From Terrimicrobiaceae bacterium (GTDB lineage: Bacteria; Verrucomicrobiota; Verrucomicrobiia; Chthoniobacterales; Terrimicrobiaceae), in NCBI GenBank assembly GCA_018402345.1, contig JAGYIV010000014.1:124001-188000 (forward strand): DNA of 64,000 nucleotides, written 5' to 3'. Shown piece by piece: positions 7,614-60,707 of the stretch; within the stretch, counting starts at the first letter, position 1, and every line of letters starts with the position of its first letter. The position numbers and the translations under genes are program-made. The notes below the pieces were generated by a model. It saw nothing but the letters and a program-made list of their open reading frames with translations. It was not told the origin of the DNA and did not search any database.

Positions 7614-8993
7614 CTACTCTCGGGGGGTGGGGGAGGCTTTGGAAATCACAATTTCGCGCAGGTCGGGGTTTTCCAGAAAGATGCGCGTGCCGTCCACCCC
7701 GACAATCCCGGTGGCTTGAATATCCAGCCCGACGTTTTTTTTGAGAAGGATGGTGGAGAAGTCGCCCTTTTCCCTGTCGAAGCAGAGGGTGGGATCGCGT
7801 GAGTTGGAGCCTTTGAAGACAAGGTGGAAGCGGCCCTGCTTGTCCTCTTCGAAGCTCCCGATGGTTCCAGTGATGGTGGTTTTCTGGCCCTCGCGCGCGA
7901 GGATGGCCTTGCGTTCGTTCCAGACGAACGACGTGCGTGTGGCCTGCTGCGCATCGGCGTCGGCGATCATTTTCGCGTGGGTGTTGCCTCCGGAAAATCC
8001 GCCGAGGAGCCAATAGGCGGCTGCGGCGAGGAGAAGAGCGGCGGCGGCTCCTGCGAGAAGGAGTTTGTTTTTGGAACGCGGTTGGCGCGGGGCTGCGGGC
8101 GGCGGGGATTGGACAGGGAGCGAGGGTTTGCTTGTCGGCCGGGAGGTCCGCCCCCTGCCGCCGACAGCGGGCAGGGAGGCGAGCGCCTCGGCGGCGGTGG
8201 GTGGCCTGTCCGAGCGGTCGCGGGCAAAGAGGTGCTCGACCCACTCGACAAGGGGGCGGGGAAGGTCGGGGCGGAGTGTTTCAAGCGGCTTGTGGTCGTG
8301 CGCGAGGTGCGCCGCGACAACGGCCGGGATGGATTTTCCCTGGAAGGGATGCCGACGGGTCAGTGCCTTGTAGAACACGCAGCCCAGCGAGTAGAGGTCG
8401 GTGCGGTGGTCGATGGGGAGCCCCTCGAGCTGTTCCGGGGACATCATGAAAATGGACCCCATGAGCGCGCCGGAGTGGTCCATGGTTTGGAGCGAGGGTT
8501 CCGCAATGACTTTCGCGAGGCCGAAATCGAGAATCTTGACCTGGAATCCGCCAGAGGCCTGTGCCGCGAGCATGATGTTGCCCGGCTTGATGTCGCGGTG
8601 GGCGATGCCGGAGGTGTGGGCTGCCGCCAGACCGCGCAGGCATTGGGTGGCGAACTCGGTGAAAAACGCGGCATCCATCGGCTCCTCGAGTTCGTCCACG
8701 TTTTGTCCCGGCAGGTATTCCATGACGACGAGGACCTCATCCTCCGAAGTGACGATGTCGTGGACGGTGATGATGTTCGGGTGTTGGAGGCTGGCGAGGT
8801 GGGTGGCCTCGCGGATGGCTGATGTCTCGAGCAGGGGAACGGAGCCGTGGTCGTGGATGCGTTTGATGGCGACCCAGCGACTGAGGACGCTGTCGTAAGC
8901 GAGAAACACAGCACCCTCGCCGCCGGCGCCGAGGCGGCGTTGGATGGTGTAGCGTCCGTTCCCAAGGGTCTCCAAGTGCTCGATCGGTTCCAC
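7614..8993 (-). CDS. Transmembrane Ser/Thr protein kinase with an extracytoplasmic beta-rich domain
   Basis: A 459-residue Hanks-type kinase. The glycine loop GAGGEGAV is at residues 22-29, the ATP lysine K44 lies in VAIKRI, the catalytic loop HRDIKPGN starts at 132 and DFG is at 156-158. A Pro/Arg-rich juxtamembrane stretch (about 280-310) leads into one TM helix (about 310-332). The extracytoplasmic tail (340-459) contains GQKTTITGTIG and HLVFKG, suggesting a small OB-like beta fold; it is not a PASTA array. The neighbouring minus-strand gene upstream (9076-10023) encodes a second, soluble kinase with nearly the same catalytic domain, so a duplication is likely. Substrates are unknown. Confidence 0.9.
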   Translation of the reverse strand: MEPIEHLETLGNGRYTIQRRLGAGGEGAVFLAYDSVLSRWVAIKRIHDHGSVPLLETSAIREATHLASLQHPNIITVHDIVTSEDEVLVVMEYLPGQNVDELEEPMDAAFFTEFATQCLRGLAAAHTSGIAHRDIKPGNIMLAAQASGGFQVKILDFGLAKVIAEPSLQTMDHSGALMGSIFMMSPEQLEGLPIDHRTDLYSLGCVFYKALTRRHPFQGKSIPAVVAAHLAHDHKPLETLRPDLPRPLVEWVEHLFARDRSDRPPTAAEALASLPAVGGRGRTSRPTSKPSLPVQSPPPAAPRQPRSKNKLLLAGAAAALLLAAAAYWLLGGFSGGNTHAKMIADADAQQATRTSFVWNERKAILAREGQKTTITGTIGSFEEDKQGRFHLVFKGSNSRDPTLCFDREKGDFSTILLKKNVGLDIQATGIVGVDGTRIFLENPDLREIVISKASPTPRE

Positions 8994-9075
8994 GCAGGCA
9001 GGGAACCAGAACGAGGCGTGAACTCAAGACGCAACGGAGAATGGGCATGCAACACGCCCGTAACAATTCGGCGGA

Positions 9076-10023
9076 TCAGGCGGGGATGGCTTGAAGCTCC
9101 AGCGTGACGTAGGGGCTGCCCTCGTGGCGGTGGACAACGATGTTCGGGGGCAGGGGTTTTCTGGGGCGCTGCGAGGGCTTGGCCAGAGCGGACTGGATGG
9201 ATTTGAGTTCCTCGAGGGCGGCGGTGGCGGAGGCCGGGCGTGCGGCGGAGTCCAAGGCGGACAGGCGCTCCACCCAAGCGGTGATGTCCGCGGGCAAATC
9301 CGGGCGCATAGAAGCGAGGGGTTGGAATTCGTGCTGCAGATGCGAGGTGATCACGGCGGTGACAGTCTCTCCTTGGAACGGGTGTTCCTTGGTGAGCGCC
9401 TTGTAGAACACGCAGCCGAGCGAGTAGAGGTCCGAGCGGAAATCGATTGGTTCGGCGCGGAGTTGTTCCGGAGACATCGTGAAAATCGAACCTAGGAGCG
9501 CGCCGGAGTGGTCCTTTGTTTGTTCGGAGGGCTTGTCGATGACCTTGGCCAGTCCGAAGTCGAGGATTTTGACCAGAATGTTTCCCGGGGAGGACTCCAG
9601 AACGATGATGTTGCTGGGTTTGATGTCGCGGTGGATCATGCCGATCGCATGGGCCGCCGAGAGGCCCTGGAGGCACTGTGCCGCGAATTTTCCGAACGCG
9701 TCGAGCGACATGGGGACGGGGAGTTCGTCCACATTTTGGCCGTTGAGGAATTCCATGACGACCATGATGCCGGTCGGTTCGCGGATAAAATCGTGGACGG
9801 TGACGATGTTCGGGTGTTGCAGGCTGGCGAGGCGGGAGGCTTCGTCGATGTTCTGTTTGTTTTCCGAAGCATCGGAATCCGCATGGATTTTTTTGATCGC
9901 GACCTTGCGGTTCAGCGTGCGGTCCAGCGCCAGAAAGACCGCGCCTTCACCGCCGGCGCCGACTTTTTCAAGGATTTCATAGCGGCCGTTGCAAACGACG
10001 TCCGAGGGATTGAGGGATGACAT
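9076..10023 (-). CDS. Cytoplasmic Ser/Thr protein kinase
   Basis: A 315-residue Hanks-type kinase with GAGGEGAV (22-29), catalytic lysine K44 (VAIKKI), HRDIKPSN from residue 131 and DFG at 155-157, followed by a short basic/Pro-rich tail and no membrane helix. It closely resembles the adjacent kinase at 7614-8993: the shared FLNGQNVDE / YLPGQNVDE and MSPEQL...IDxRxDLYSLGC stretches point to gene duplication with loss or gain of the membrane part. The start was placed at ATG 10023, just before the conserved NGRYEI; a much longer upstream in-frame extension has the Arg/Pro/Ser-rich look of a shadow frame. Confidence 0.9.
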   Translation of the reverse strand: MSSLNPSDVVCNGRYEILEKVGAGGEGAVFLALDRTLNRKVAIKKIHADSDASENKQNIDEASRLASLQHPNIVTVHDFIREPTGIMVVMEFLNGQNVDELPVPMSLDAFGKFAAQCLQGLSAAHAIGMIHRDIKPSNIIVLESSPGNILVKILDFGLAKVIDKPSEQTKDHSGALLGSIFTMSPEQLRAEPIDFRSDLYSLGCVFYKALTKEHPFQGETVTAVITSHLQHEFQPLASMRPDLPADITAWVERLSALDSAARPASATAALEELKSIQSALAKPSQRPRKPLPPNIVVHRHEGSPYVTLELQAIPA

Positions 10024-48729: not shown

Positions 48730-49251
48730 CTATCTCCACATGTAGGATTGCCTGAGGGCGACGATGCGGTCGTCCACGATGAGCAGGGCCCTCCAGGCGG
48801 TGACACGTCCCGCCTCGAGAAAATCGTCGCCCGTGACGTCGAAGGTCGAGCGGTGGGATCCCCTGGTGGCGGGGTAAAAGCGTTCCTGGGCCATGACAAA
48901 GTTGCCGAGTTCGGCCTGACGGTATTCCAAGCGGACGGTCACGTCGGATTCGACGGAATTCCTCCAGAAGAACGTGAAGTAGTTTCCGTAGCGTTTGGAG
49001 ACTTCGAGCGAATCGATGGCTCCCCAGGTTCTGCGGGCGCGCTCGAAGTTGATGTAATCGACTTTCGTGCGGGTCTCCGGGAGATCCGGATCGTAGACGG
49101 AAAGGAGGATTTTGCGGAACTGATACGAGTCGTCGATCGCGAGCGGGAGGACGTTGGCCTTCTCCAAGCGCGTGGCGGGTGCCTCGAGTGTGGAGCAACC
49201 AGCGAGTGCGGCGACAAGAGCCGTTGCCAGCACCGGGAAGAGACAATTCAT
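48730..49251 (-). CDS. Small predicted lipoprotein, function unknown
   Basis: A 173-residue protein with a lipoprotein signal sequence (MNCLFPVLATALVAALAGCS; lipobox LAGC with Cys19). The mature part is mixed alpha/beta, with repeated aromatic residues (YGNYFTFFWRN, YRQAELGNFVMAQERFYPA). No domain was recognised. It is divergent to the exonuclease-ligase gene and starts about 60 bases upstream of the STAS gene on the same strand, so its membership in that chain is unclear. Confidence 0.75.
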   Translation of the reverse strand: MNCLFPVLATALVAALAGCSTLEAPATRLEKANVLPLAIDDSYQFRKILLSVYDPDLPETRTKVDYINFERARRTWGAIDSLEVSKRYGNYFTFFWRNSVESDVTVRLEYRQAELGNFVMAQERFYPATRGSHRSTFDVTGDDFLEAGRVTAWRALLIVDDRIVALRQSYMWR

Positions 49252-49355
49252 GGGGCGGAATCAAAGCGGGTTTGGCCTGTGGTGTCAATTCGCCGGGCGG
49301 GAGCGGGAGGTGCCGGTTGACTCGGCCCGGATGCCGCGTTAAGAGGCGCACGCAA

Positions 49356-52010
49356 ATGATCGACGTGCGCCATGACCACGGGGTGTTCCTGCCCGGCTGC
49401 GGTCTGTGGCTCGACCCGCGCGGATCGAAACAGTTGGCGTTTGTTTCGCATGCCCACAGCGATCACACGGGCCGCCATGGAACCACGATTGCCACCCCTG
49501 CGACCTTGCGGTTGATGGAGGCGCGGATGGGGGCGTTGGAGGGTGAGTCTGTCGCGCTGGGTTTCGGGGAGGAGCGTGCGTTCGATTCATTCACGCTCGA
49601 GTTGCTTCCCGCCGGCCATGTCCTTGGATCCGCGCAGGCGTTTGTAGAATCCGCTGCCGGCAGTCTTCTATACACGGGGGACTTCAAATTGAGGGCTGGA
49701 GCGACCTCGGAGGCCGCCGCGCATTGCCATGCGGAAACGCTGGTGATGGAAACTACCTTCGGGCTGCCAAAGTATGTGTTTCCTCCGGTCGAGGAGGTGC
49801 TCGCGGGGATCGTGAAATTTTGTGTCGAGGCGCTCGAGGAGTCTCGGACGCCGGTGTTGCTCGGCTACTCGCTCGGGAAGGCACAGGAGATTTTGTCGCG
49901 GCTCGAGGGGTATGGGTTGCCCGTGATGCTGCATGCGAGCGTCTCGAAGTTGGCGGAGGTTTACCGAGCCGAGGGAATCGGGTTGCCGCCGTATGCGGAA
50001 TGGGATCCCGCCGCTGCAGCAGGGCATGTGGTCGTGTGTCCGCCCGGAGTCGCTGGGGGGCGCGCCTTGGCCAGAATCCCGCAACGCCGGGTGGCGATGC
50101 TGAGCGGTTGGGCGCTGGATGCCGGCGCGGTGCACCGTTGGCGCTGCGATGCGGCGTTTCCGCTGTCCGACCATGCCGGCTATGACGACTTGTTGCGGCA
50201 TGTCGAGGCGGTGGCTCCCAAGAGGGTGCTGACACTGCACGGATTCGCCTCCGAGTTCGCCGCCGATTTGCGGTCGCGGGGAATCGAGGCGTGGGCGCTG
50301 ACTGGGCCGAACCAATTGGATTTGAATCTGCTATTGCCGCGGCCACGTCCTCCGGCGCGTCATGCACCCGCCGAGGTCGAGGCGGCGGCGGGGTTTTTAA
50401 AATTCTGTTCTGTGGCCTTGGAAATCGAGCGGTTGACCGGAAGGACGGCGAAGTGTGGTGTGTTGGCGGATTATTTCCGGCAACTCGACGACTCAGAACT
50501 GCGCCATGCCGCCGTGTGGTTGTCGGGGCGAGCGTTTCCACGTTCGGACCATGGGCCGCACCATGCCGGAAGGGCAGTTGTTCGAGCCGCGTTGATCGAG
50601 GCAACGGGACTGCCTGAGGCCGAATACAGGGTGGTTGAGCGCGGCTTGAACGATCTGGGAAGGACCGCCGGAAACGTTCTGGAGCGGGTTGAGGGGATGC
50701 AAAACCCGACGCTTCCCGAAGTGGCGGCGGTTTTGGATTCCCTCCGTGCCGCACGGGGCGCTATGGCCAAGACGGATGTGATGGCGGGATTTTTTCGGGA
50801 GGCACCGGCGGTAGCCTCCATGTTTTTGGTAAAAATCCTCTCGGGCGATTTGAGGATCGGCTTGAAGGAGGGCCTGCTCGAAGAAGCGCTGGCTGTGGCG
50901 TTCGATGCCGATGCCTCGGAGGTGAGGGAGGCGAACATGCTGGAAGGCGACTTGGGGCGCGTGGCCTTGCTGGCGCGCACGGGGAGGTTGCGCGAGCGGG
51001 AGTTGCGTGTGTTTCATCCGGTGAAGTGCATGCTTGCTCGGCCCGAGCCGGATGCCGAGGCGGTCCTGTCGCATTTCGCCGGTGTTTCGCCGGTCCGGGT
51101 CGAACACAAGTTCGATGGTATCCGGGCGCAAATCCACACCGACGGCATCCGCGCCAGGGTGTTCACCCGTGACTTGAAATGTGCCACCGCGATGTTTCCG
51201 GAAATCGCCGCAGCCGCCGAGGCGCTCGGGCGCTCCGCCATATTTGACGCCGAACTGATTGCGTGGAGGAATGGACGACCGTTGCCGTTTTTCTCCCTGC
51301 AACGGCGGCTCGGGCGGAGTGGGGACGACCTGTTCCTCGGCGCGGAAATTCCGGTGGCGGCGATTGTCTTCGATGTGTTGCAGCTCGACGGCACCTCATT
51401 GCTGGAAACGCCCCTTGCGGAGAGGCGCGCCCTGTTGGAGGGGGTGGAACTGCCGACTCCGCTTCGGCTCGCCGAGGTGTTCGAGGCGCGGGATGCGGCC
51501 ACTCTCGATGCGTTGTTCGAGGCTGCAAGGGCCAGCGGGCACGAGGGACTCATGGTGAAGGATCCGGCGGGAATGTATGCCCCGGGAAGCCGCGGTGGGG
51601 CTTGGATCAAGCTCAAGAAACAATTCGCCACGCTCGATGTGGTGGTCGCCGCGGTGGAATACGGCCATGGAAAGCGGCGCGGGGTGTTGAGCGATTATAC
51701 ATTTGCCGTGCGAGACGATGCCACCGGTGCGCCGGTGGTGATCGGAAAGGCCTACAGCGGGCTGACGGACGCCGAGATCGCCACGTTGACCGACGAGTTT
51801 CTCACGCTCGAGGTGTCGCGTTCGGGCAACAAACTTGCCGTCGAGCCCCGCATTGTTCTCGAGGTCGCCTTCGATGCGATCCGCGAGAGTTCGCGGCATG
51901 CCGCCGGGTTGTCCCTGCGGTTTCCGAGAATCGTCCGCATCCGCCGCGACAAGTCCGTCGATGAAATCGACACGGTCTCGAGCGCCCGGCGGTTACTTCC
52001 GCCCCGGTGA
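49356..52010 (+). CDS. Fused MBL-fold exonuclease and ATP-dependent DNA ligase
   Basis: An 884-residue fusion. Residues about 1-335 are a ligase-associated MBL/beta-CASP-type exonuclease (metal motif HAHSDH at 32-37, AGHVLGSAQAF, LLYTGDFKLR, GYSLGKAQE, FPLSDHAGYDDLL). Residues about 345-884 are an ATP-dependent ligase: alpha-helical N-terminal domain, AMP-acceptor Lys585 in EHKFDGIR, FDAELIAW, EGLMVKDP and AWIKLKK, then an OB-fold. In many bacteria these are separate genes next to an Lhr-type helicase and a phosphoesterase; here the two proteins are one chain and the other two are not in the window. ATG 49356 precedes the first conserved residues. A role in DNA repair is inferred. Confidence 0.92.
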   Translation: MIDVRHDHGVFLPGCGLWLDPRGSKQLAFVSHAHSDHTGRHGTTIATPATLRLMEARMGALEGESVALGFGEERAFDSFTLELLPAGHVLGSAQAFVESAAGSLLYTGDFKLRAGATSEAAAHCHAETLVMETTFGLPKYVFPPVEEVLAGIVKFCVEALEESRTPVLLGYSLGKAQEILSRLEGYGLPVMLHASVSKLAEVYRAEGIGLPPYAEWDPAAAAGHVVVCPPGVAGGRALARIPQRRVAMLSGWALDAGAVHRWRCDAAFPLSDHAGYDDLLRHVEAVAPKRVLTLHGFASEFAADLRSRGIEAWALTGPNQLDLNLLLPRPRPPARHAPAEVEAAAGFLKFCSVALEIERLTGRTAKCGVLADYFRQLDDSELRHAAVWLSGRAFPRSDHGPHHAGRAVVRAALIEATGLPEAEYRVVERGLNDLGRTAGNVLERVEGMQNPTLPEVAAVLDSLRAARGAMAKTDVMAGFFREAPAVASMFLVKILSGDLRIGLKEGLLEEALAVAFDADASEVREANMLEGDLGRVALLARTGRLRERELRVFHPVKCMLARPEPDAEAVLSHFAGVSPVRVEHKFDGIRAQIHTDGIRARVFTRDLKCATAMFPEIAAAAEALGRSAIFDAELIAWRNGRPLPFFSLQRRLGRSGDDLFLGAEIPVAAIVFDVLQLDGTSLLETPLAERRALLEGVELPTPLRLAEVFEARDAATLDALFEAARASGHEGLMVKDPAGMYAPGSRGGAWIKLKKQFATLDVVVAAVEYGHGKRRGVLSDYTFAVRDDATGAPVVIGKAYSGLTDAEIATLTDEFLTLEVSRSGNKLAVEPRIVLEVAFDAIRESSRHAAGLSLRFPRIVRIRRDKSVDEIDTVSSARRLLPPR

Positions 52011-58328: not shown

Positions 58329-60707
58329 ATGATCATGCCGATAGGTTTTTCGACCTTTATGCAACCCGATCCGCCACTCCCCCTGCCGGCCCGCTATCAA
58401 TTCAAAGCCCTCCTTGGACAGGGGGGGGCAGGCGAGGTTTTGAGTGCATGGGACACCCAACTGAAACGAACAGTGGCCGTGAAGCGGTTGCGCCAGGCGA
58501 CAATGCCCGACGCGGACGTCCGCGATGCATGGCAGGAGGCAATGTGCCTGGCCTCAATCCGGCATCCGAACATCGTTTCAGTGTTCGACATTGGAACCGA
58601 GCATGACGCGCCCTACATGGTCATGGAATTTGTGCAGGGTGAGACCTTGGAACAGGCCGTGCGCCGCTCACCGCTCGAAATCCCCGTTTTTTGCGACATC
58701 GCCGCCCAGTGTCTGGAGGGAATAGCCGCCGCACACCATAGCGGTCTTGTGCATCGCGATCTCAAGCCCGCAAACATCATGCTTGTGCGTTTGCCCACCG
58801 GTCAATTTCAGGTCAAGCTTCTTGACTTTGGCATAGCCCAGTATCTTCAAGAAAATCAAGTAGAAGGTGATACGAATGCAGTCGCCGTCACGGGCACCAT
58901 CCATTGGATCTCACCGGAACAGTTGGAGGGAGCGGCTGTGGACGGTCAGTCCGACCTTTATTCTCTCGGGTGTGTTTTTTATTTTTGCCTGACTGGGGTG
59001 CCGCCTTTTTCCGGGACAACCCCCAATGAGATCCTGCAAGCCCATCTTGCCGGAGATGCCTGCCCTTTGGCGGTGTTGCGTCCCGATGTCCCGCCGGCGC
59101 TGGCCGGTTGGGTCATGAGCCTCATGGCGAGGCGACCGGACGATCGACCCGCCGGCGCAATCGATGCGCTGAGGCGCTTGGAACCTCCGGCGGCAAACTT
59201 CGTAAAAACCACACGAATTTCCGCTCCGCTGTCGGGCCCGCCTCCCGGGGTGGACGAAGAAACCGGTCGGATCGATTGCCGTATGCTGGACTCGCCCGCT
59301 GCACCCCCTCCCGAGCCCCGCAAGCCTGTTTGGCCGCTGGCTGCGGCCACAGCCCTGTTTGTTGCGGTCGTTGGGTTGTTGGGTTGGATGTTTTTTCAGA
59401 AACCTGAACAGCCCGTGTTCCGCATCCATGGATCGAACACAATTGGCTCAACGCTCGCACCGGCTCTTGTCGAAGGTTTCTTGACCCAACGCGGCAACAA
59501 GGAAATCCAGACCGAGAGCGCCCATGGCAGTGTGGAGCGACGTGTGGGTTTTTTGGATTCGAGAAGCGGTCGCCGTGAATTTGTAGAAGTTCATGCACAC
59601 GGCTCGCGCACCGCATTTTCGGGGCTTCGTGACGGACTTTGCGACATCGGGATGTCATCCTCTCGGGCGAGGGAGTCGGATGTGTCAGAGTTGGCTGGGA
59701 AGGGGATTGGAAACATGAGGACACCTTCCTGTGAAATCATTGCGGCGCTCGACGGCCTTGCCGTCCTTGTTCACCCCGAAAACCCCTTGTCGCAGCTCGA
59801 TCGCCGGGCGGTGGCGGCCATTTTCGAAGGAAAAACCACAGATTGGGCCGAGGTTGGGCGCGAGCGCCCAGGAAAAATCAACCTTCATGCGAGGGATTCC
59901 AACTCTGGCACCTTTGAATTCTTCCAATCCGTTGTGCTCGGAAACGGGTCTTTGGCTCCGGACGCGCTCCGTTACCAGGACAGCACGGAGCTTTCCAGAG
60001 CTGTGTTGGCGGACGAGGATGCCATCGGATTCGTGGCATTGCCCTACATCCTCGACTGCAAAGCGCTGGCGATTGGAGACGACGGGACCCCTGCTTTGAT
60101 TCCCTCCCGTTTTACAGTTGCCACCGAAGATTACGCCCTTTCGAGACGGTTGTTTTTTTATGTTCCTGCGTCGGGCATGCACCCCTGGGCCAGGAAATTT
60201 CTTGAATTCGCCACCGGACCCGCCGGCCAAGACATCGTGAGCAGGGTGGGGTTCGTCAAGCAAACGCCAGTGGTCCAACCGGGCCTGGTGCCGCGCAATG
60301 CCCCGGCCGAATATCAGAGTCTTCTAGAGAATGCCGAAAGAGTGAGTCTGAACGTCCGCTTCAGCGCAGATACGGGGGCCCTCGACTCGAAGGCCGCGCT
60401 GGATTTGGGCCGCTTGGTTGATTTGATGGCGGTCCCTGAAAACAGGGGTCGAGAGCTTGCGTTGGCTGGATTCCACGAGGATACCGGCGATGCGGCTGCT
60501 GATCTCGCGTCCTCTGTTCAAAGCGCCTCCTTGGTGGCTGCCGAAATTGAAAAACGCGGACTAAAGGTCCGTCATGTCACAGGCTATGGAGCCGCTCTTC
60601 CCGTGGGGTCCAACAATGATCCAGCCGGACGCTGGAAAAACAGGCGTGTCGAAATCTGGATTCGTGGCCCACGGGACCCGTTGGCGTTTTCACCCCAGGG
60701 AAACTGA
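58329..60707 (+). CDS. Composite receptor kinase: Ser/Thr kinase-TM-PstS-like binding domain-OmpA-like domain
   Basis: A 792-residue protein. The kinase domain (about 22-285) has GQGGAGEV (30-37), Lys52 in VAVKRL, HRDLKPAN from 142, DFG at 166-168 and a complete lobe (DLYSLGCVFYF). A Pro-rich linker leads to one TM helix (about 335-356). The periplasmic part starts with a PstS-type phosphate-binding-like domain (about 364-645: IHGSNTIGSTLAPALVEGF, HARDSNSGTFEFFQ) and ends with an OmpA-like peptidoglycan-binding domain (about 670-779: GYGAALPVGSNND, then WKNRRVEIWI). Binding/OmpA proteins without the kinase are known; the whole composition is unusual. It could sense a ligand, possibly phosphate, and relay it inward by phosphorylation. 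The start could be 58335 or 58359. Confidence 0.85.
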   Translation: MIMPIGFSTFMQPDPPLPLPARYQFKALLGQGGAGEVLSAWDTQLKRTVAVKRLRQATMPDADVRDAWQEAMCLASIRHPNIVSVFDIGTEHDAPYMVMEFVQGETLEQAVRRSPLEIPVFCDIAAQCLEGIAAAHHSGLVHRDLKPANIMLVRLPTGQFQVKLLDFGIAQYLQENQVEGDTNAVAVTGTIHWISPEQLEGAAVDGQSDLYSLGCVFYFCLTGVPPFSGTTPNEILQAHLAGDACPLAVLRPDVPPALAGWVMSLMARRPDDRPAGAIDALRRLEPPAANFVKTTRISAPLSGPPPGVDEETGRIDCRMLDSPAAPPPEPRKPVWPLAAATALFVAVVGLLGWMFFQKPEQPVFRIHGSNTIGSTLAPALVEGFLTQRGNKEIQTESAHGSVERRVGFLDSRSGRREFVEVHAHGSRTAFSGLRDGLCDIGMSSSRARESDVSELAGKGIGNMRTPSCEIIAALDGLAVLVHPENPLSQLDRRAVAAIFEGKTTDWAEVGRERPGKINLHARDSNSGTFEFFQSVVLGNGSLAPDALRYQDSTELSRAVLADEDAIGFVALPYILDCKALAIGDDGTPALIPSRFTVATEDYALSRRLFFYVPASGMHPWARKFLEFATGPAGQDIVSRVGFVKQTPVVQPGLVPRNAPAEYQSLLENAERVSLNVRFSADTGALDSKAALDLGRLVDLMAVPENRGRELALAGFHEDTGDAAADLASSVQSASLVAAEIEKRGLKVRHVTGYGAALPVGSNNDPAGRWKNRRVEIWIRGPRDPLAFSPQGN

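Follow-up and report, generated by a model that had tools for sequence, protein, structure and literature searches.

A single open reading frame in the 64,000-nucleotide window of Terrimicrobiaceae DNA analyzed here (contig JAGYIV010000014.1) encodes, in order, a Hanks-type kinase, one transmembrane (TM) helix, a PstS-like periplasmic-binding-protein (PBP) domain, and, at the C terminus, an OmpA-like domain. This chain is a real conserved protein, since the fused kinase domains that are complete, nine in all, group as a single clade and the three domains are under purifying selection. Our preferred reading, which we regard as roughly an even call on the sequence comparisons below, is that it would act as a single-pass receptor Ser/Thr kinase responsive to phosphate or another oxyanion, with the OmpA-like domain now serving dimerization or some other contact.

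The frame runs for 792 codons without a stop, and because the closest orthologue begins at the residue matching Met11, translation probably starts there to give a protein of 782 aa. Pfam matches all exceed their gathering scores (Pkinase at 23-242, 1.1e-46; PBP_like_2 at 419-630, 8.8e-22; OmpA at 678-772, 3.8e-06), and these profile searches, together with the same order in orthologues and the one strong TM segment in a hydropathy scan, bear out the four-part architecture and single-pass topology that a sequence-only reading of this DNA had described. GC3 is alike in the kinase-side and sensor-side halves (0.63 and 0.62) and somewhat lower than in neighboring genes, so there is no compositional sign of a recent domain join, and a horizontal patchwork was rejected on this basis.

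Features of the kinase-PBP-OmpA gene, with positions in the window
Feature	Position	Strand	Basis or remark
Whole gene, kinase-TM-PBP-OmpA receptor-kinase candidate	58329..60707	+	792 aa; translation likely begins at Met11 (58359)
Hanks-type Ser/Thr kinase domain, residues 22-285	58392..59183	+	Pfam; all catalytic motifs present
Activation segment VTGTIHWISPEQ (residues 187-198)	58887..58922	+	
Pro-rich cytoplasmic juxtamembrane linker, fast evolving	59184..59333	+	residues 286-335
Single TM helix, residues 336-356	59334..59396	+	hydropathy scan, peak 2.21
PstS-like PBP domain, residues about 363-645	59415..60263	+	Pfam, TIGR02136, phmmer, fold matches
Putative pocket motif 1, HGSNTIGS (Ser369, Asn370, Thr371)	59427..59450	+	alignment
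Putative pocket motif 2, AHGSRTAF (Ser426)	59595..59618	+	alignment
Putative pocket motif 3, IGMSSSR (Ser444)	59646..59666	+	alignment
Putative pocket motif 4, ARDSNSGTF (Arg522; Ser526-Gly527-Thr528)	59889..59915	+	alignment with 4Q8R
OmpA-like domain, residues 672-779	60342..60665	+	Pfam, alignment with solved domains, fold matches
Degraded peptidoglycan(DAP)-binding site: Glu717, Asp725, Ser732	60468..60527	+	alignment; family norm Asp, Asn, Arg

The kinase had been called complete, and this holds: PF00069 scores 159.9 bits against a gathering score of 31.7, and the G30-V37 loop, K52, E70, H142-R-D144, N149, D166-F-G, and SPE (195-197) are all in place. By these motifs the N-terminal half is an intact RD-type Hanks kinase, and Thr188 and Thr190 of its activation segment are Ser/Thr in most orthologues. 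The PASTA kinases PknB, PrkC, and Stk1 share with it an N-terminal Hanks kinase, a single TM helix, and an extracytoplasmic C-terminal sensor, and their model, NF033483, is the best NCBIfam match. However, that match reaches 263.6 bits against a curated cut-off of 450, and a Pfam scan finds no PASTA repeats in the window protein, which carries a PBP-OmpA ectodomain instead. The linker retains, in most copies from the genus, a (D/E)-rich T-G-(R/S)-(I/F) motif within residues 286-335 that could offer phospho-Thr docking for FHA proteins; the genome holds four FHA-domain matches, possible phospho-Thr readers that we mention as a lead only.

Full-length queries were swamped by kinases, and the order-wide search of 213 genomes was made with the periplasmic half alone. 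Within the genus (16 genomes searched), G003 (77% identity), G007, G010, and G011 carry the gene at full or almost full length, the copies of G006 and G008 are interrupted by contig ends, and the remaining nine genomes gave no match. First searches among relatives and across the class had confined the fusion to one genus, a view given up when the full order search turned up three more fusions to a kinase, all from a second family, f6 (L106, L108, and L109); L108 is alignable over residues 1-782 at 43%, and the two f6 fusions scanned have an identical Pfam domain order. The fusion is thus carried by 7 of 16 genomes of the genus and 10 of 213 of the order, a patchiness which implies that the gene is dispensable. 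Sampled class and phylum searches yielded no further fusion, although so sparse a sample can miss carriers and initially missed f6, and a scan of viral contigs returned zero relatives. The named records with close relatives, two only in the contig scan, are a Verrucomicrobia MAG and a MAG labelled Chthoniobacter flavus.

That the chain is an assembly artifact or a chance fusion between neighboring genes is a notion to which we give next to no credence. The source genomes are mostly fragmented assemblies, but the same junction recurs in independent assemblies of two families whose kinases cluster together, which refutes it. A further six genomes of the genus and three of f6 show the domains in this order, which speaks against both a chance match and mis-assembly. 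In the kinase tree, the nine complete fused domains form their clade with support of 100/99 relative to 24 other related kinases; in the unconstrained tree the sensor halves are not monophyletic, although the AU test does not reject grouping them as one clade (p 0.096). Because the fused kinases cluster in this way and one sensor-half clade is unrejected, the trees are most simply read as a single fusion event inherited by descent, some relatives having had their N terminus replaced. For most pairs, closely related ones, dN/dS is ~0.07-0.19 in kinase, PBP, and OmpA parts (~0.07-0.16 for the PBP part), values low enough to indicate that every domain is constrained. The OmpA part reaches 0.31 in one distant, nearly saturated pair, and the juxtamembrane linker is looser at ~0.13-0.31.

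If the protein is a receptor, its specificity would lie in the PBP domain. PBP_like_2 matches it at 78.6 bits against a gathering cut-off of 27, and the PstS model TIGR02136 matches residues 417-644 at 2.8e-38, its 131.8 bits falling under the curated cut-off of 206.6. In phmmer alignment, Arg522-Asp-Ser-Asn-Ser-Gly-Thr528 pairs with Arg125-Glu-Asp-Gly-Ser-Gly-Thr131 of Clostridium perfringens PstS (4Q8R), and both Arg125 and the equivalent Arg of Mycobacterium tuberculosis and Escherichia coli PstS contact phosphate (PMC12421899). By alignment, the phosphate-contacting set R522, S526, G527, T528, S426, and T371 is present, the GSNT, HGS, and M-x-S motifs are retained as well, and all nine aligned kinase fusions have the same residue at each of S369, N370, T371, G425, S426, S444, R522, S526, G527, and T528. 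The zinc-ribbon relatives of family f20 lack these residues in the same alignment, so their conservation in the kinase fusions is not automatic. The PstS-type domain that the sequence-only reading had recognized is therefore kept with its pocket residues in all nine, rather than stripped of its phosphate-coordinating positions.

These observations support an oxyanion site, short of proof for phosphate. AlphaFold models built from a single sequence and from three sequences have mean pLDDT of 59 and 36, too poor for pocket geometry; with the pLDDT-59 model, a weak query, the best Foldseek matches are PstS-type structures including phosphate-bound 4GD5, and tungstate and other PBP folds stand lower in the list. 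A same-topology receptor kinase whose cleft binds not phosphate but a different oxyanion, an organic phosphate, a glycan, or a partner protein seems to us unlikely. It would fit the sub-cut-off TIGR02136 score and those lower-ranked folds, and at the aligned third pocket motif the window protein has Ser where the E. coli-type pocket has Asp56, so that ligand specificity cannot be read from the sequence. PstS families also vary in the pocket and may take larger phosphorus compounds (PMC12421899). On the other side, sequence and fold comparisons alike point to phosphate-binding PstS-type proteins as the closest solved relatives, and nothing of the RD-x-x-SGT and GS-x-T motifs has been lost.

The OmpA-like domain tells a different story from the one first proposed, in which it tethers the receptor to peptidoglycan. 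Its Pfam score is marginal (27.6 bits where the cut-off is 27.2, with 42 bits in an orthologue), and it shares with the OmpA C-terminal/Pal domain (PF00691) the fold and the NRRVEI end. In domains of the OmpA type, DAP is contacted by one Asp and one Arg, which in Acinetobacter baumannii OmpA are Asp271 and Arg286 (PMC5974059, PMC7901484). Alignments with solved domains and relatives place Glu717 and Ser732 at these positions in the window protein; a tether, which would depend on the missing pair, is therefore unsupported there, and we reject it for this protein as unlikely. The Arg is gone in 6/6 genus copies compared, replaced by Ser or Phe, but is kept in the three f6 kinase fusions and every compared non-kinase PBP-OmpA relative, so that a wall tether in the f6 fusions is plausible from sequence. 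The NRRVEI end had been taken as a peptidoglycan-binding end; the motif is indeed present, but it lies outside the ligand-binding part of OmpA domains, and its conservation in both groups, with and without the DAP Arg, makes it uninformative on binding.

These substitutions also weigh on the proposal that the OmpA part still anchors the receptor and the kinase reads the state of the wall, with or without phosphate, which we consider very unlikely. The fold is present and constrained, and the DAP triad of the f6 fusions and of all compared OmpA-bearing non-kinase relatives suggests that the ancestral protein was probably wall-bound. In the window's genus, however, Asp has become Glu in the window protein and the Arg is lost throughout the copies compared, whereas the genome's four other proteins with an OmpA domain all retain it. 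OmpA-C domains are typically dimeric (PMC5974059), which suggests a possible role for the kept fold once wall binding is lost.

The PBP-OmpA half is not new, as the pair exists in public annotation. Pseudoalteromonas sp. THAF3 WP_152441739.1, annotated as a "phosphate ABC transporter substrate-binding/OmpA family protein," is 39.9% identical across 98% of the periplasmic half and has the same pocket residues behind a hydrophobic TM-like stretch; it differs in having ~90 N-terminal residues without a Pfam kinase match in place of the kinase and an intact DAP Asp/Asn/Arg. Elsewhere in Verrucomicrobiota the module stands behind a CxxC zinc-ribbon-like stretch and TM helix (L043-L054 and L107), behind a signal peptide and DUF1318 (L041 and L042), or within longer LamG-like/PBP/SBP/OmpA proteins (L013, L016, and L022). 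As these sequences read, the N-terminal partner of PBP-OmpA is exchangeable, and the kinase is one among several. The three longer proteins are secreted, with a LamG-like N terminus, the PstS-like PBP, and, by eye, a second, sugar-type solute-binding domain; in L013 and L016 the latter is followed by OmpA-like sequence, where the locus is cut off. The f20 proteins L043-L054 are the reverse of the window's genus, with the phosphate pocket lost and the peptidoglycan triad kept.

Could the ectodomain, then, be no ligand sensor at all, and merely localize or dimerize a constitutively active kinase? Since the f20 relatives lack the pocket yet keep the OmpA site, the module can last without ligand binding. 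Against this, the kinase fusions keep their pocket residues without exception and the PBP part evolves under the low dN/dS given above, and we find the proposal distinctly unlikely.

Returning to the oxyanion-responsive receptor that we favor, the N-terminal half would be cytoplasmic and the C-terminal half periplasmic, and the PBP lobes would close around a small oxyanion, inorganic phosphate or one resembling it. Closure may alter how two receptors pair or how far apart they sit, which would drive trans-autophosphorylation of the kinases and then downstream phosphorylation. The OmpA part may have begun as a wall anchor and, in the window's genus, may now be a dimerization or contact module. 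A role in uptake is not needed: elsewhere in the genome (G000:C5, with a PF12849 match) lies a conventional pstS-pstC-pstA-pstB-phoU order, its genes named by us from their translations. The fused PBP is thus unneeded for transport, and the protein would be a sensor rather than a transport component. It shares with PstS (TIGR02136; 4Q8R and 4GD5) the fold and pocket motifs, but differs in being membrane-fused to a kinase and encoded outside a pst operon. In none of the genomes examined does the kinase gene lie beside phosphate genes; its window neighbors, as we read them, are SDR-type, DUF192-like, and cytochrome c genes, not a pst operon. An operon-based function was rejected, the neighborhood being shared with the nearest species only.

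Phosphate signaling normally runs through the Pst transporter, PhoU, and a histidine kinase. Were the kinase under the control of the PBP part, this would be a direct periplasmic receptor of the phosphate type acting by Ser/Thr phosphorylation. Extended to all the fusions, the proposal becomes more tentative and falls short of an even call: a receptor-kinase clade in two families of one Verrucomicrobiota order may use its fused PstS-type domain to sense phosphate, or an oxyanion akin to it, directly in the periplasm without recourse to PstSCAB-PhoU-PhoR, with one genus having passed from wall-tethered to wall-independent. PBP folds also serve as fused periplasmic sensor domains in BvgS-type histidine kinases; the window protein has such a sensor in common with them but is a Ser/Thr kinase with a PstS-type PBP. 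In the open-access literature searched we found no paper on the union of a kinase with PBP-OmpA, in agreement with the initial impression that the combination is not a described system. To call it a new class of receptor kinase, as was also suggested, is too strong, given that the two-domain periplasmic half is already annotated and there is precedent for receptor Ser/Thr kinases whose outer domains differ in kind (PMC6213207). A module with swappable N-termini (a kinase, a zinc ribbon, a short segment with a TM helix, or a secreted form), in which the ligand pocket and the wall-binding site were lost separately, each in its own branch, amounts to a natural experiment on receptor assembly.

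Several other loci came to light. At window positions 49179-52010, and at 4619-7348 of L091, one open reading frame reads as a fusion of an MBL-fold exonuclease and an ATP-dependent DNA ligase, and it directly adjoins the kinase-PBP-OmpA gene in G007 and G011. Two paralogous Ser/Thr kinase genes lie adjacent on the minus strand at window positions 8079-9990 (G000:C8:132079-133990); one (L002) has a TM helix and a small outer domain that Pfam does not match, OB-fold-like by eye. A further paralogous kinase, L003 (G000:C4:502811-503650), carries a TM helix and an extracytoplasmic 3-keto-disaccharide hydrolase/DUF1080 domain (PF06439, 4.6e-29) and is a second receptor-like kinase of this genome. 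Finally, L122 (G000:C4:336928-337206) begins with what looks by eye like an excisionase-like helix-turn-helix, continues with a TM helix, and ends in an OmpA domain; it is possibly a DNA-binding regulator held in the membrane, with a domain that binds the wall on the periplasmic side.
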